A DNA stretch of 64,000 nucleotides, taken from Bradyrhizobium altum (GTDB lineage: Bacteria > Pseudomonadota > Alphaproteobacteria > Rhizobiales > Xanthobacteraceae). The notes beneath the pieces are model-generated. The model made no database searches. It was not told where the DNA came from and saw only the letters and a program-made list of their open reading frames with translations. The DNA lies in assembly GCF_020889705.1 (NCBI RefSeq), contig NZ_JACMYP010000010.1:1-64000 (forward strand). The letters are read 5' to 3'. The translations under genes were made by a program, and so were the position numbers. Positions 264 to 60,575 of this stretch are shown here, piece after piece; the first letter of the stretch is position 1, and each line of letters opens with the position of its first letter.

Positions 264-365
264 CTAGAACGCGATAAAGAAACAACCCAAGAGCAATAGG
301 GTGAGCAAAACAGACACCCCGGCTGCCAATTCTAGGGCGTCGCTGGGCTCTGTTGATCGGTTCAC
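264..365 (-). CDS. 33-residue single-pass membrane peptide
   Basis: GTG at 365-363 opens a 33-codon frame ending TAG at 264. It reads NRSTEPSDALELAAG after the start, followed by one strongly hydrophobic helix (VSVLLTLLLLGCFFIAF). The GTG overlaps the TGA stop of the gene at 362-565 as GTGA, which points to translational coupling. Too small for family assignment; a membrane-anchored micropeptide made together with the upstream protein is the simplest reading. Function is not known. Confidence 0.5.
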   Translation of the reverse strand: MNRSTEPSDALELAAGVSVLLTLLLLGCFFIAF

Positions 366-565
366 ATTGGGGGCTGCAAACCGGGCGAACAGAGCCATTC
401 CTCGAGATGGGAAGCGGTCTCTGCCTGTCTGGCCTTCTTAAGGGTGAGGTGCTTTTCGTCGCCAATTGGCAATTCCTGGGCCCTCGCTCTGAGGCGCTGC
501 GCCTCGTCGCATAGACGCTCATGGAGGGATTGAGAGTGTTTGAAACGACGACGCTTCATGGCCAT
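362..565 (-). CDS. Small EWLxSPGLQP-family protein (copy A)
   Basis: A 67-residue basic, helical protein. It has a KRRRFKHSQSL start, ERLCDEAQRLRARAQELP in the middle and ARQAETASHLEEWL-CSPGLQPP at the end. Three paralogues lie in this window (18263-18535, 56509-56712, 60363-60575) and share R-x-R-[FNY]-K, ERLxxEA, ARxAETxx and EWLxSPxL. The ATG at 565 follows a purine-rich AAAGGA. Upstream are a conserved leader and an EcfG-type promoter; downstream is a coupled membrane peptide. No known domain; charged helices could suit RNA or protein binding, but that is speculation. Confidence 0.8.
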   Translation of the reverse strand: MAMKRRRFKHSQSLHERLCDEAQRLRARAQELPIGDEKHLTLKKARQAETASHLEEWLCSPGLQPPM

Positions 566-655
566 ACCGCTATCCTTTCCGTTTTGGAAAACGGCGTGAG
601 CGCAGTGATGGCGTTCTCGTCACCGATAGATACCGAGAGTCTCGCGGCAACGATG
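566..655 (-). promoter_or_regulatory. Conserved 5' leader RNA, copy A
   Basis: On the minus strand this leader aligns over almost its whole length with 18171-18262 and 56713-56800. The shared core is CTCGGTATCTATCGGTGA, then GAGAACGC. TCGTTGCCG (653-645) can pair with CGGTGACGA (625-617); the second arm can instead pair with TCACTG (608-603). Compared with copy B, one A-U pair becomes G-C and two pairs become G-U, so pairing is kept. Here CCGTTTT/AAAACGG forms a separate hairpin just before the ribosome-binding site. Confidence 0.6.
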
Positions 656-658
656 TGT

Positions 659-684
659 AACGCCTGTAACCGAACCGAAGTTCC
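659..684 (-). promoter_or_regulatory. EcfG-type stress promoter upstream of leader A
   Basis: Read on the minus strand: GGAAC, 17 nt, CGTT, matching the alphaproteobacterial EcfG consensus. The leader starts within about 10 nt of CGTT, so the transcript would begin almost exactly at the 5' arm of the first hairpin. Confidence 0.6.
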
Positions 685-6537: not shown

Positions 6538-6625
6538 GGAAGCTTGGCAGAGTGGCCGATTGTGCTGCGGTGCTAACGGAGTAGACCGCCAGGTCTCAGA
6601 GGTTCAAATCCTCTAGCTTCCGCCA
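6538..6625 (+). tRNA. tRNA-Ser-like (anticodon GCT), degenerate
   Basis: A perfect 7-bp acceptor (GGAAGCT/AGCTTCC), discriminator G, encoded CCA, a good T arm (AGAGG-TTCAAAT-CCTCT) and a class II variable arm (AGACC-GCCA-GGTCT) are present. The TGCTAAC loop would carry GCT, but the flanking bases do not pair as a normal anticodon stem. It may therefore be non-functional or unusual. Confidence 0.55.
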
Positions 6626-6630
6626 ATACG

Positions 6631-6673
6631 TGACCTTCGGGTCTGGCGAGTTCGACTCTCGCTCTCTCCGCCA
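6631..6673 (+). tRNA. Partial tRNA-Ser (3' half only)
   Basis: A variable-arm hairpin (GACC-TTCG-GGTC) is followed by a T arm (GCGAG-TTCGACT-CTCGC) and an acceptor 3' strand with CCA. The 5' half is missing, leaving a class II tRNA fragment directly behind the Ser-like tRNA. Confidence 0.5.
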
Positions 6674-6675
6674 CA

Positions 6676-6876
6676 TCATCCGGCGTCAAAGCGCCGTCTC
6701 GCCGCGGCAATAACTTCGCGGGTTGCCAGATCACCTTGCTCAGCCATGTCGGCGCAAGGATCCGTCTTCTGCTCCTCGCATGCGCACGAGCCATGAAGTT
6801 GCCGGCAGAACGCCCATGACCTGAGCCGCCAGACACGGTTCTCGGTTTCGGTGAAATTCATGCCCGCTTGGGTCAT
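6676..6876 (-). CDS. Possible small protein within the tRNA array
   Basis: An open frame reads MTQAGMNFTETENRVWRLR, then CRQLHGSCACEEQK, then AEQGDLATREVIAAARRRF. Composition is plausible for a real small protein, unlike the upstream extension of the frame, which merely shadows a tRNA. No family is recognised. The 5' end overlaps the tRNA-like gene at 6862-6935 on the other strand. Confidence 0.3.
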   Translation of the reverse strand: MTQAGMNFTETENRVWRLRSWAFCRQLHGSCACEEQKTDPCADMAEQGDLATREVIAAARRRFDAG

Positions 6877-6935
6877 AGGTTGATCACCTGGTTTCCACCC
6901 AGGCCAAGTCGGTTCGAGTCCGGCAGCCCGCACCA
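6862..6935 (+). tRNA. tRNA-Gly-like (anticodon TCC)
   Basis: The anticodon arm is perfect (CCTGG-TTTCCAC-CCAGG, anticodon TCC). The T arm is GTCGG-TTCGAGT-CCGGC and CCA is encoded. The acceptor 3' strand AGCCCGC does not pair with the corresponding 5' bases GCCCGCT, so the molecule appears defective. Confidence 0.45.
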
Positions 6936-6950
6936 ATTTTCAAAGGGAAA

Positions 6951-6977
6951 CCCCGAGGAGAATGAATCTCCTCGGGG
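6951..6977. terminator. Perfect 11-bp inverted repeat
   Basis: CCCCGAGGAGA, a 5-nt loop (ATGAA), then the exact complement TCTCCTCGGGG. There is no T-run, so it may be a processing or termination hairpin between array tRNAs. Confidence 0.45.
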
Positions 6978-7061
6978 GCCCTCCATTCGAGCGCCGGGCG
7001 CCGCGGTAACAGCGTTCCGGCGGTTGCCTTCCTACTCGCGGAGGATGTGGGCGGCAAATAG

Positions 7062-7136
7062 CCTGCCATCGCCTGGTGGAAAGGGTACGGCTCTTTAAGC
7101 CGGACTTCGCGGGTTCAACTCCCGTTGGCAGGACCA
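7062..7136 (+). tRNA. tRNA-Lys-like (anticodon TTT, C33)
   Basis: A perfect 7-bp acceptor (CCTGCCA/TGGCAGG), A73, encoded CCA, and a T arm GCGGG-TTCAACT-CCCGT. Counting from the T arm, the anticodon loop is TCTTTAA with anticodon TTT. Position 33 is then C instead of the near-universal U, and the first anticodon-stem pair is mismatched. Confidence 0.6.
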
Positions 7137-7141
7137 ACCAT

Positions 7142-7218
7142 GGGCGCGTAGCCAAGGTGGCTAAGGCACCGGATTTTGATTCCGACATCCGCAGGTTCGA
7201 GCCCTGCCGCGCCTGCCA
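7142..7218 (+). tRNA. tRNA-Gln (anticodon TTG)
   Basis: Acceptor GGGCGCG/CGCGCCT, anticodon arm CCGGA-TTTTGAT-TCCGA (one terminal mismatch), T arm GCAGG-TTCGAGC-CCTGC, discriminator G and encoded CCA. All arms are in normal register with U33 present. Confidence 0.75.
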
Positions 7219-7225
7219 ACATCAT

Positions 7226-7298
7226 CGCAGGGCCTCTAGGGTAGGGTCTCGGTCTCATAAGCTGGGATAGGCCGGTTCGAAGCCGGTACCTGCGACCA
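7226..7298 (+). tRNA. tRNA-Met/Ile2-like (anticodon CAT)
   Basis: Anticodon loop CTCATAA gives CAT; the stem has three G-U pairs. The T arm is GCCGG-TTCGAAG-CCGGT and CCA is encoded. Acceptor pairing is 6-7 bp depending on register. CAT could be elongator Met or lysidine-modified Ile. Confidence 0.6.
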
Positions 7299-7301
7299 TC
7301 C

Positions 7302-7376
7302 CCTGACTTCGTTCAATGGTAGGACGCTCGGCCGTGGACCGGGAGACGCGGTGTTCGATTCACCCACTCAGGACCA
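7302..7376 (+). tRNA. tRNA-His-like (anticodon GTG, C33)
   Basis: Acceptor CCTGACT/ACTCAGG (one mismatch), D arm GTTC-AATGGTA-GGAC, anticodon arm CTCGG-CCGTGGA-CCGGG with anticodon GTG, A73 and CCA. As known for alphaproteobacterial tRNA-His, there is no G at -1 and A is at 73. Position 33 is C, as in the Lys-like tRNA. Confidence 0.6.
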
Positions 7377-7565
7377 TTAGGTGTGGGTCAGTGCTTGCGC
7401 GGCGATATTGCGGACCTGTTTCAGCGTGTTCTCGTATCCGAGGGGCCCGAGCGTACCAACTGTTGCCACGCGCAAGATCTCTTCGATCGACGTGCGCAGC
7501 GTGTCGATTTCCGCCGCGCCGACATCGAGAGCGACGTGGGTAGCCCTTTGCCAAAAATCGGGTGC
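7377..7565 (-). pseudogene. Helical protein fragment inside the tRNA array
   Basis: A minus-strand frame ending TAA at 7377 reads FWQRATHVALDVGAAEIDTL, then RTSIEEILRVATVGTLGP, then ENTLKQVRNIAAQAL. The amphipathic helices look like real coding sequence. The frame is bounded upstream by TGA at 7568-7566 and contains no ATG, GTG or TTG before the conserved part. A lost start or frameshift is likely. Family unknown. Confidence 0.45.
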
Positions 7566-7641
7566 TCAGACCGGCCGCTTGGCGTCGCTCCGCTAGCTTT
7601 TGCTCCAGTCTATCTTTCGTCTTCGTCGTGCCTGTCTCCAG

Positions 7642-7715
7642 GGGAGTGTCGTCTAGTGGTAAGGCACCGGCTTCCAACGCCGGTTACGTGGGTTCGATTC
7701 TTACCGCTCCTGCCA
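7642..7715 (+). tRNA. tRNA-Trp-like (anticodon CCA)
   Basis: Acceptor GGGAGTG/CGCTCCT (two G-U pairs), a perfect anticodon stem CCGGC/GCCGG with loop TTCCAAC, which places CCA at 34-36. T arm GTGGG-TTCGATT-CTTAC, discriminator G and encoded CCA. If the stem were shifted by one the anticodon would read TCC (Gly), but pairing favours CCA. Confidence 0.65.
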
Positions 7716-8275: not shown

Positions 8276-8512
8276 TTTCTCTCCATCGCCCGCTGCCGCT
8301 GAGCGGCCGCATATTCGCGGGCCAAAGACCTGGACGCTTCGCCGCCAGCCAACTCCCCCAAATCAATCATCCTATTCCGACGGCCATGCCAATATGAAAG
8401 GCGGCGGTTCGGCCCGACCTCGGGTGCTGTCCGTCGGCCAAGGTTCTGTCCGCAGGCGTCGGTGGCTGAGAGACCGCGAGCGCTCCCGCCGCACTAGGAA
8501 TGGAGCCGGTCA

Positions 8513-8632
8513 TGCATTGGTATGAGGAGCTCGGCAAGCAAGCGCGCGCCGTGTCTGACGCGGCGCAACTTCGCAGATGGGCCAAAGCCGGCCCTGGCAG
8601 GCGCATCGGAGGCGGGTCCATTGAGCATTGAG
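8513..8632 (+). CDS. 39-residue protein containing a repeated SDAAQLRRWAK motif
   Basis: ATG 8513 follows GGAG at suitable spacing. The product reads MHWYEELGKQARAVSDAAQL, RRWAKAGPGRRIGGGS and ends IEH. The SDAAQLRRWAK segment is encoded by a 34-bp sequence repeated exactly at 9379-9412, where a different tail follows. It may be intact or a truncated member of a larger family. Function unknown. Confidence 0.45.
8553..8586 (+). repeat. 34-bp direct repeat, copy 1
   Basis: Identical over 34 bases to 9379-9412. The two copies flank the cupin gene. Confidence 0.8.
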
Positions 8633-18170: not shown

Positions 18171-18262
18171 GTTACTCATCACCGCGCAGTCCCTCGGTAT
18201 CCATCGGTGATGAGAACGCTGTCACCGCGCTCCCGCCTTCTTCCAGCGGAAAGGAGCGCGCT
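18171..18262 (+). promoter_or_regulatory. Conserved 5' leader RNA, copy B
   Basis: The best-formed copy. CTCATCACCG (18175-18184) pairs perfectly over 10 bp with CGGTGATGAG (18205-18214). CGGTGA of the second arm can instead pair with TCACCG (18222-18227). CGCGCTCC (18226-18233) pairs over 8 bp with GGAGCGCG (18253-18260), which contains the Shine-Dalgarno AAGGAG placed 6 nt before the GTG start. TCACCG and CGCGCTCC overlap by two bases, so the hairpins compete. No clear EcfG motif was found upstream of this copy. Confidence 0.65.
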
Positions 18263-18535
18263 GTGATCAAGCGTCGCAATCGAACCAAGCATACGAAGAC
18301 ATTCGAAGAGAGATTGGCCGACGAGGCCGCGCGCTTCAGGGAAGCTGCGGCTGAACTCCCGCCGTGCACTCAGCGAGAGCTATATCTTCGTCGAGCCCGT
18401 CAGGCCGAAACGGCAGCCCATATCAACGAGTGGCTGAGGTCGCCCGGGCTACAGCCGCCTAAGGCGATTCAGAAAGAGCATGTCGCCCGAATGGTGAAGG
18501 TTAGCCGAGAAGGCGATCTCAATGGCCAAGGTTAA
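18263..18535 (+). CDS. Small EWLxSPGLQP-family protein (copy B)
   Basis: A 90-residue member with GTG start at 18263, placed after AAGGAG. It reads MIKRRNRTKHTKTFEERLAD, EAARFREAAAELPPCTQREL and ARQAETAAHINEWL-RSPGLQPP. It has an extra 20-residue C-terminal tail compared with copies A, C and D. The leader before it can sequester the ribosome-binding site. A small basic ORF starts inside its last codons (18522). Confidence 0.78.
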   Translation: MIKRRNRTKHTKTFEERLADEAARFREAAAELPPCTQRELYLRRARQAETAAHINEWLRSPGLQPPKAIQKEHVARMVKVSREGDLNGQG

Positions 18536-56508: not shown

Positions 56509-56712
56509 TTAGGTCGGAACCTTCAGGCCGGGCGATGAAAGCCACTTGGCCATGCGCGAGCCGGTTTCCGCTAGCCGCGCCCTGCGAATAAGTTTTTCGC
56601 GCTCCACTCCCAATGTTGTGCCCATCGCTTCTTTCCGCAGGCATACAGCCTCCTGCGCAAGACGCTCGCCGAGTGGATCGAGTTGTTTGAAACGCTGCCG
56701 TTGGAGGATCAT
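56509..56712 (-). CDS. Small EWLxSPGLQP-family protein (copy C)
   Basis: From ATG 56712: MILQRQRFKQLDPLGERLAQ, EAVCLRKEAMGTTLGVEREK, RARLAETGSRMAKWL-SSPGLKVPT. It keeps ERLxxEA, ARxAET and the WLxSPGL ending. The start follows AAAGGAGCG, which can be hidden by GCGCTCC in the leader. The frame start at 56769 is rejected because it runs through the leader. Confidence 0.75.
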   Translation of the reverse strand: MILQRQRFKQLDPLGERLAQEAVCLRKEAMGTTLGVEREKLIRRARLAETGSRMAKWLSSPGLKVPT

Positions 56713-56800
56713 GGCGCGCTCCTTTCCAATTTCAGGAAGGCGGGAGCGCTGATCGGGCGTTCTCATCACCGATGAATACCGATAGCCGCGCGGTGATTGA
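56713..56800 (-). promoter_or_regulatory. Conserved 5' leader RNA, copy C
   Basis: On the minus strand ATCACCG (56797-56791) pairs with CGGTGAT (56771-56765), and GCGCTCC (56749-56743) pairs with GGAGCGC (56722-56716), which contains the ribosome-binding site. The shared core ATCGGTATTCATCGGTGATG is present. The third arm (TCACCG in copy B) is poorly kept here. Confidence 0.6.
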
Positions 56801-56804
56801 CCCT

Positions 56805-56829
56805 AACGAACACCCCTAGCGACACTTCC
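56805..56829 (-). promoter_or_regulatory. EcfG-like promoter upstream of leader C
   Basis: On the minus strand GGAAG, 16 nt, CGTT: one base from consensus. The first leader arm begins 7 bases after CGTT. Confidence 0.45.
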
Positions 56830-60362: not shown

Positions 60363-60575
60363 ATGCAGCATCGTCGCCGGTACAAACCACAAGCTGTTTC
60401 GCTAGAAGAGCGGCTCGAAGAACGAGCGAATGAGTTTCGCGAACGTGCCAAAGCGCTTTCCCCAAGCGCTGAGCGAGAAGCCCTTCTCAAGCTAGCCCGG
60501 CAAGCCGAAACCGGCGCGCGCATGAGTGAATGGCTCCGCTCACCGCGACTGCAGCCATCCGAGCGAACACCGTGA
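60363..60575 (+). CDS. Small EWLxSPGLQP-family protein (copy D)
   Basis: ATG 60363: MQHRRRYKPQAVSLEERLEE, RANEFRERAKALSPSAEREA, ARQAETGARMSEWL-RSPRLQPSERTP. It has all family motifs but G becomes R in SPGL. Its leader is not the conserved one. Its stop overlaps the next GTG (GTGA), as in copy A. Confidence 0.8.
   Translation: MQHRRRYKPQAVSLEERLEERANEFRERAKALSPSAEREALLKLARQAETGARMSEWLRSPRLQPSERTP

Follow-up and report, generated by a model that had tools for sequence, protein, structure and literature searches.

Structured leaders ahead of short open reading frames (ORFs) of unknown function are known from the downstream-peptide motif/glutamine riboswitch, whose hosts and architecture differ from those of the leader described here. 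ROSE thermometers, which sequester the Shine-Dalgarno (SD) sequence in 5' untranslated regions (UTRs), are known in Bradyrhizobium. For the alphaproteobacterial general stress sigma factor EcfG, the text of PMC3892343 and PMC7083833 gives the promoter consensus GGAAC-N16-CGTT. Bradyrhizobium small RNAs, repeats and start sites are covered by PMC5082802 and PMC4842269, whose passages on these subjects do not describe this leader.

The window, a stretch of 64,000 nucleotides from Bradyrhizobium altum, holds three copies of the leader (A, B and C) and a degenerate fourth (D). Each of the three combines a hairpin, P1, with a near-invariant 11-mer upstream of the SD. Two search models were used, R1, built from 12 leaders with P1 alone paired, and the broader R2. 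The features of the window are as follows.

18173-18262, forward strand: leader B, class I, matched by R1 at 18177-18237 (79.8 bits) and by no Rfam family.
18175-18184, forward strand: 5' arm of P1 in leader B, CTCATCACCG, pairing at 10 of 10 positions with 18205-18214; the core six pairs covary across copies.
18205-18214, forward strand: 3' arm of P1 in leader B, CGGTGATGAG, partner of 18175-18184.
18213-18219, forward strand: conserved AGAACGC of leader B, in which GAACGC (18214-18219) is complementary to GCGCTC (18227-18232) but for one A.C mismatch; a tentative candidate for an anti-sequestor.
18227-18237, forward strand: near-invariant block GCGCTCCCGCC of leader B, whose GCGCTCC part pairs with the SD region.
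18253-18260, forward strand: SD region GGAGCGCG of gene B, GGAGCGC(G), complementary to GCGCTCC at 18227-18233.
18263-18535, forward strand: small ORF B, 90 aa, EWLxSPGL family, GTG start.
566-658, reverse strand: leader A, class I, R1 match at 593-652 (73.1 bits).
362-565, reverse strand: small ORF A, 67 aa, EWLxSPGL family.
56713-56804, reverse strand: leader C, class I, R1 match at 56739-56798 (73.9 bits).
56509-56712, reverse strand: small ORF C, 67 aa, EWLxSPGL family, ATG start at 56712.
About 8420-8511, forward strand: leader D, a degenerate class III copy with GGCGTCGGTGGCTGAGAGACC (8455-8475) and GCGCTCCCGCC (8480-8490), the 5' arm of P1 being eroded.
8512-8631, forward strand: 39-codon ORF behind leader D, starting 21 nt after the block.
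60363-60557, forward strand: fourth EWLxSPGL gene, with no recognisable leader upstream.

Leaders A, B and C lie where the initial annotation had placed them and, as it held, they are more alike than the genes that follow, with 70-78% against 58-63% identity (global identity of leader/coding sequence: A-B, 0.76/0.59; A-C, 0.70/0.63; B-C, 0.78/0.58). The pairings named for copy B, among them the ten-pair stem and that of the block with the SD, were found in the sequence, and of the compensating changes claimed for the first stem of copy A, one A-U to G-C replacement next to the core stem stands; two other pairs there are U.G and G.U. Compared with shuffled sequences, predicted folding was clearest for B (z -4.15), followed by A (z -2.5), and C barely exceeded its shuffles (z -1.2). 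Leader D gave no R2 match at E 0.01. Elsewhere in the window, six tRNA genes (Ser, Gly, Lys, Gln, His, Trp) are packed into 1.2 kb (6538-7715, forward strand), four of them scoring below 40 bits in Rfam; this group is perhaps a piece of a mobile element.

The leader is a real, widespread, structured RNA that is absent from Rfam. The window leaders had no match in Rfam 15 at the gathering score or at E values up to 10, and 16 loci spanning the three leader classes had no leader match even at E 10. The earlier statement that no named RNA family has this core agrees with these searches and with a search of the open-access literature, among whose listings no paper describing the leader was found; its novelty rests on Rfam 15 and on that literature search. 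In the B. altum genome the element occurs far above chance: R1 gave nine matches (E 1.7e-16 to 4.5e-11), and R2 returned the same nine together with four weaker ones (E 5e-7 to 5e-5), one of which, C84 (L029), looks doubtful. Among 60 sampled Bradyrhizobium genomes, 59 matched at E 0.01, with up to 31 matches per genome, and at least three of ten Bradyrhizobium relatives of gene B carry the leader (L009, L010, L016), which is also present on plasmids of Bradyrhizobium and of Nitrobacter hamburgensis. Within the family sample 51 of 149 genomes, across 20 of 47 genera, matched at E 0.001, seven of the 51 being Bradyrhizobium. The order sample yielded 19 matching genomes out of 297, nine strong and all Bradyrhizobium, the other ten ranging from E 1e-4 to 1e-3 and including one of the family; in the class sample, searched with R2, five of 289 matched and the B. 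altum genome alone did so strongly. No strong match lay beyond the family in the order (297) and class (289) samples; any search of more than 40 genomes applied tighter filters, at the cost of weak matches. The low-scoring matches from outside the family (E 3e-5 to 1e-3) were put aside, L099 among them, which carries GAGAACGCC and CTCCCGCC on the reverse strand and may be worth attention.

A phage origin was considered and dropped after a single-leader query matched no phage record. In IMG/VR, seven stretches (L206-L212; six putative viral contigs) contain the exact class I motif, and all seven match R2; the leader module may travel with prophages or have been caught at prophage edges.

We propose that the leader is a cis-acting RNA that controls translation of a regulon of small proteins, partly under EcfG, and keeps the SD hidden until a common trans signal arrives; we put the probability of this reading at about 0.62. 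The leader would constitute the entire 5' UTR (about 85-90 nt) of numerous genes for small proteins. At the 5' end it would open with P1, a hairpin of 6-8 pairs whose loop is conserved; next come a conserved single-stranded stretch (GAGAACGCC in class I, GAGAGC in class II, GAGAGACC in class III) and the 11-mer GCGCUCCCGCC. By default the 11-mer is predicted to pair with the SD about 20 nt downstream and so to hide it. The putative signal, a metabolite or an RNA-binding protein, would recognise P1 together with its loop and the single-stranded stretch, and would shift the 11-mer off the SD, perhaps through a GCGCUC:GAACGC hairpin. This mechanism does not account for the CCGCC end of the 11-mer. 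A bolder version, held tentatively and at clearly less than even odds, is that the leader represents an undescribed class of RNA sensor, probably with a ligand or a dedicated RNA-binding protein, whose promoter-leader module has spread over at least ten unrelated families of tiny proteins in Bradyrhizobium and its relatives to form an RNA-level regulon in part of the general stress response.

For the comparative analysis, further regions were hand-chosen from the best matches listed in the genus and family searches. The 162 sources gave 197 matches at E 0.01, hence 188 non-duplicate leaders, of which 184 had an ORF of at least 25 codons; 174 distinct leaders had 14-30 nt to the start, and 167 had an SD-like motif. 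Excluded were loci coinciding with the window or with one another (L001-L008, L019, L021, L022), loci lacking the motif (L011-L015, L017, L018) and, by eye, the weakest matches (L031-L037, L097-L101, L103-L106). Some of the ORF calls are surely wrong (L096, L178, L184). Because the leaders are related to one another and P1 and the 11-mer were used in finding them, p values given below are indicative.

The genes behind the leader are small and diverse. The start codon lies 18-26 nt past the 11-mer in 162 of 184 leaders, in keeping with the constant position that had been predicted, although the distribution of distances is partly conditioned by the rule for choosing starts, which favours an SD, ATG and a distance near 24 nt. 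All but two of the 184 ORFs (182) are shorter than 100 aa, and they fall into ten clusters with at least two members and 18 singles, the clustering being single-linkage BLAST at 1e-4, so that distant kinship between clusters may still exist. The EWLxSPGL cluster is the largest (127 of 184 ORFs), followed by membrane peptides of 32-48 aa with REWLVPP.L.P.F (seven ORFs), EKRAAESALIA (six), MC.KC (five), YFFD.RDG (five, the sole member scanned matching DUF6894 at E 2.8e-15), FLGRKT.E (four), a zinc-ribbon-like CP.C...DPMKS cluster (four) and three further clusters of two or three members each. The initial annotation, which had placed the leader before EWLxSPGL proteins, is too narrow, since the leader also precedes dissimilar small ORFs and several EWLxSPGL genes do without it. 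An EWLxSPGL profile found 21 matches in the B. altum genome: nine have a leader, including two degenerate ones (L250, L251), no leader was recognised at another nine, and three weak matches (L256-L258) stood outside the comparison. The leader is accordingly not obligatory for these genes.

On plasmids, the neighbours of the leaders include Ku, DNA ligase, a universal stress protein, sensor kinases, Crp/Fnr regulators, RsbRD and DUF4142, among many others, and the surroundings also hold transposases and oxidoreductases, giving the impression that plasmid leaders sit in accessory stress islands. At one locus (L138; G047:C1:6988897-6990954) three tandem leaders lie within 0.8 kb, each with a different kind of small ORF (28 aa and hydrophobic, DUF6894-like, zinc-ribbon-like), and divergent leader pairs occur at L046/L127 and at L047.

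The predominance of EWLxSPGL ORFs among the collected leaders speaks for the first of two alternatives that differ from each other in the trigger and are sub-cases of the proposed reading. In it, the regulon is repressed or activated by an RNA-binding protein that attaches to P1 and the single strand and could itself belong to the EWLxSPGL family. The family has a basic KRRRFK N-terminus, R5, R7 and R46 are invariant across ten aligned sequences, and the predicted structure is a two-helix hairpin with a low-confidence basic N-terminus. Against this, the other ORF clusters lack the EWLxSPGL motif and several EWLxSPGL genes lack the leader; the predicted structure has no significant solved relative in Foldseek (best E 1.6), which leaves charge as the only hint of RNA binding. 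No EWLxSPGL ORF matched Pfam (five sequences) or NCBIfam (three) above the cut-off. We regard operation by such a protein as possible, at odds well short of even.

The architecture of the leader was resolved into three classes by a script rule, which assigned 130 of the 174 leaders to class I, 13 to class II and 24 to class III and left seven in none. Class I leaders run in the order caUCACCG, a loop ending in UGGcaUcUAU, CGGUGAUG, AGAaCGCc, mostly 3-6 variable bases and GCGCUCCCGCC, after which about 24 nt including the SD lead to the start codon. The sequence after the stem is GACUGAGAGC in class II and GGCUGAGAGACC in class III, some members of which also have an extended loop. All classes retain the 11-mer, which is altered within its first eight bases in 34 of 174 leaders, and in the 130 class I leaders the block is conserved at 93-99% per base. 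From leader to leader, the spacer that separates P1 from the 11-mer varies by single bases.

Covariation backs P1 as an RNA stem, in line with the compensating changes noted earlier for the first stem of copy A. Ten double changes, spread over four of the six core pairs, preserve pairing; examples are CACUG/CAGUG (L061, L062) and CACAG/CUGUG (L094, L144, L174). In a swap test on the 44 of 174 leaders that deviate from the consensus in the core stem, their own arms form 5.66 of 6 pairs against 5.45 for exchanged arms, the former being better in 2000 of 2000 shuffles. An independent covariation counter found five pairs changed on both sides in alignment A4, with 0 of 500 shuffles on every measure. 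The signal was weaker in alignment A5, where changes on both sides were matched by 91 of 500 shuffles and further pair types by 93 of 500; of the five measures there, two thus stood at about 90 of 500, one at 8 of 500 and two at 0 of 500. Both alignments were fitted to the P1 model and hence lean towards P1. One-sided changes comprise 29 G.U, 10 A.C and five others, and this excess of G.U over A.C is expected of an RNA from the coding strand. Kinship among the sequences inflates all of these P1 figures. In an anchored alignment of 175 leaders, mutual information chiefly reflected the mixture of classes, and P1 did not stand out. Two other features were discarded: an inner stem within the P1 loop (RNAalifold, 12 sequences), the halves of which pair worse with each other than when exchanged, and an upstream ORF at GATGAG, which by eye is not preserved in classes II and III and is out of register with the gene.

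This architecture is what gives some weight to the second trigger, a riboswitch for a metabolite or an ion, which we judge a minority possibility of the same rank as the protein. Conserved unpaired bases in loop and linker next to a variable spacer, one leader on many dissimilar genes, and a conserved structured leader with covariation, albeit in P1 only, would all fit; a single covarying stem is little for a riboswitch, our analyses revealed no pseudoknot or junction, and no gene in the contexts inspected points to a ligand.

Control of translation through SD sequestration, on which the proposed reading turns, is likely, judging from predicted folding. From the 174 leaders a random 90 were drawn and 86 folded; the mean unpaired probability of the SD was 0.115, against 0.272 in dinucleotide shuffles of the upstream part, and was lower in 75 of 86 (Wilcoxon p 1e-12). 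A helix of the 11-mer with the SD was predicted in 127 of 167 leaders. Covariation in this helix is weak (swap test 0.03-0.04 for 174 leaders, 0.13 for the 34 deviating ones), because the 11-mer barely varies, and the complementarity of CUCC and GGAG is partly forced by the SD itself. Cases that look compensated are ACG with CGU (L024, L167), GUGC with GCAC (L195) and CUCCC/GGGAG in L079 against CUCUC/GAGAG in its relative L084; pairing is below the median in L009, L029, L094 and copy A.

As to the alternative pairing, the competitor originally proposed, CGGTGA with TCACCG, did not hold up: in leader B TCACCG (18222-18227) does overlap GCGCTCC (18227-18233), but it occurs in the linker of just five of 174 leaders and is thus not conserved. 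A better candidate, still a tentative one, is the pairing of GAACGC with GCGCUC proposed by the RNAalifold consensus, in which the 11-mer takes part with its 5' half and which would release the SD. This hairpin is predicted in 11 of 167 leaders. Over its five pairable positions, compared in 138 class I leaders, there are two double and ten one-sided changes that keep pairing, along with 11 non-pairs, and the sixth position is A.C or another mismatch in 137 of 138. The swap test gave 0.009 for 174 leaders and 0.014 for the 23 deviating ones, and by class 0.12 for class I, 0.19 for class I deviants and 0.60 for class II; in class III the hairpin is not recognisable by eye. Regulation by a trans-acting small RNA carrying the antisense of the 11-mer was rejected: GGCGGGAGCGC occurs 18 times in the genome against 33 times for the reversed control, and eight of the 15 occurrence contexts listed are leaders.

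A hidden SD would also be expected of an RNA thermometer like the ROSE elements known in Bradyrhizobium, in which the SD hairpin melts on heating. We consider this improbable: the conservation of P1, its loop and the 11-mer exceeds the needs of a melting hairpin, no heat-shock family was found among 18 representative and the three window ORFs, and neither the window nor the 16 loci matched ROSE in Rfam.

Sequences matching the EcfG consensus were found immediately upstream of the leader in a subset of cases. With at most one mismatch, 25 of 183 leaders have GGAAC-N16/17-CGTT ending 5-8 nt ahead of the core, where 0.2 are expected from upstream regions; with at most two mismatches the figure is 42 of 183 against 2.7, mostly at a distance of 6 or 7 nt. 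Two of the window copies have such a promoter, and copy B has none (4 mismatches).

659-684, reverse strand: EcfG-like promoter of A, GGAAC (684-680), N17, CGTT (662-659), 6 nt from the core, no mismatch.
56805-56829, reverse strand: EcfG-like promoter of C, GGAAG (56829-56825), N16, CGTT (56808-56805), 6 nt from the core, one mismatch.

The other 142 leaders favour TA at -11/-10, TT at -6/-5 and A/T at -40/-39, at several distances, and their boxes are partly sigma-70-like. Both promoter patterns suggest a transcript whose first bases lie at the base of P1, and we infer that transcription begins at or within a few bases of P1; a start downstream of the leader, which would have spoken against a leader RNA, is thus not where the promoter boxes point. 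A subset of the leader genes is, on the same grounds, probably transcribed by EcfG, in which case the leader would superimpose a second level of control on part of the stress response. Palindromic motifs lie about 45-30 nt upstream of many non-EcfG leaders (L119, L171, L108, L057), at the -35 region; these palindromes (GTGCGCACAAGTGCAC, CACTAGTGGAC, TATCAAATGATA, GATCAATATTGACC) differ between leader subsets and look like operators of different regulators.

A P1 that begins at the inferred transcript start could merely be a 5'-terminal hairpin stabilising the mRNA, without any switching. This has little in its favour otherwise, as the conserved GAGAACGC, the conserved GCGCUCCCGCC and the hidden SD would be left unexplained. 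Promoter boxes at a fixed distance, in a module ahead of dissimilar genes, could likewise suggest a DNA element, that is, a promoter-operator module copied before genes in which the inverted repeat of P1 is a protein site on DNA; the preference of the coding strand for G.U over A.C, the fixed relation to SD and start codon, and the single-base variation of the spacer between P1 and the 11-mer make this equally unlikely. That the transcripts are mRNAs of type I toxins, structured and inert for translation at the 5' end, is highly improbable, for while some ORFs are 28-50 aa long with one hydrophobic segment, most are of other kinds (EWLxSPGL, zinc-ribbon-like, DUF6894).

If the leader does act as a translational control RNA, the many dissimilar small-protein genes that carry it form a regulon whose members cannot otherwise be annotated, and 'hypothetical' small proteins of nitrogen-fixing symbionts become linked to a single signal and partly to EcfG. 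The leader also provides a handle for finding that signal: one RNA, one assay.

Compared with described systems, the leader resembles the downstream-peptide/glutamine riboswitch in being a structured RNA ahead of short ORFs, but the Rfam model of that riboswitch has no match here. With ROSE it shares SD sequestration in Bradyrhizobium 5' UTRs, and it differs in having no Rfam ROSE match, in possessing a conserved 5' hairpin and 11-mer, and in the lack of a heat-shock family among the ORFs scanned behind it. The GGAAC-N16-CGTT promoters ahead of a subset of leaders recall the EcfG regulon, whereas a common leader RNA downstream of the promoter is not mentioned in the passages of PMC3892343 and PMC7083833 on this consensus. 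Br-REP1/Br-REP2 and the BjsR RNAs of B. japonicum are likewise multi-copy or structured RNA elements of Bradyrhizobium (PMC5082802). A BjsR RNA could, as far as sequence goes, be identical with the leader; Br-REP1/Br-REP2 are distinguished from it by their printed consensus and their location in 3' UTRs (PMC5082802).
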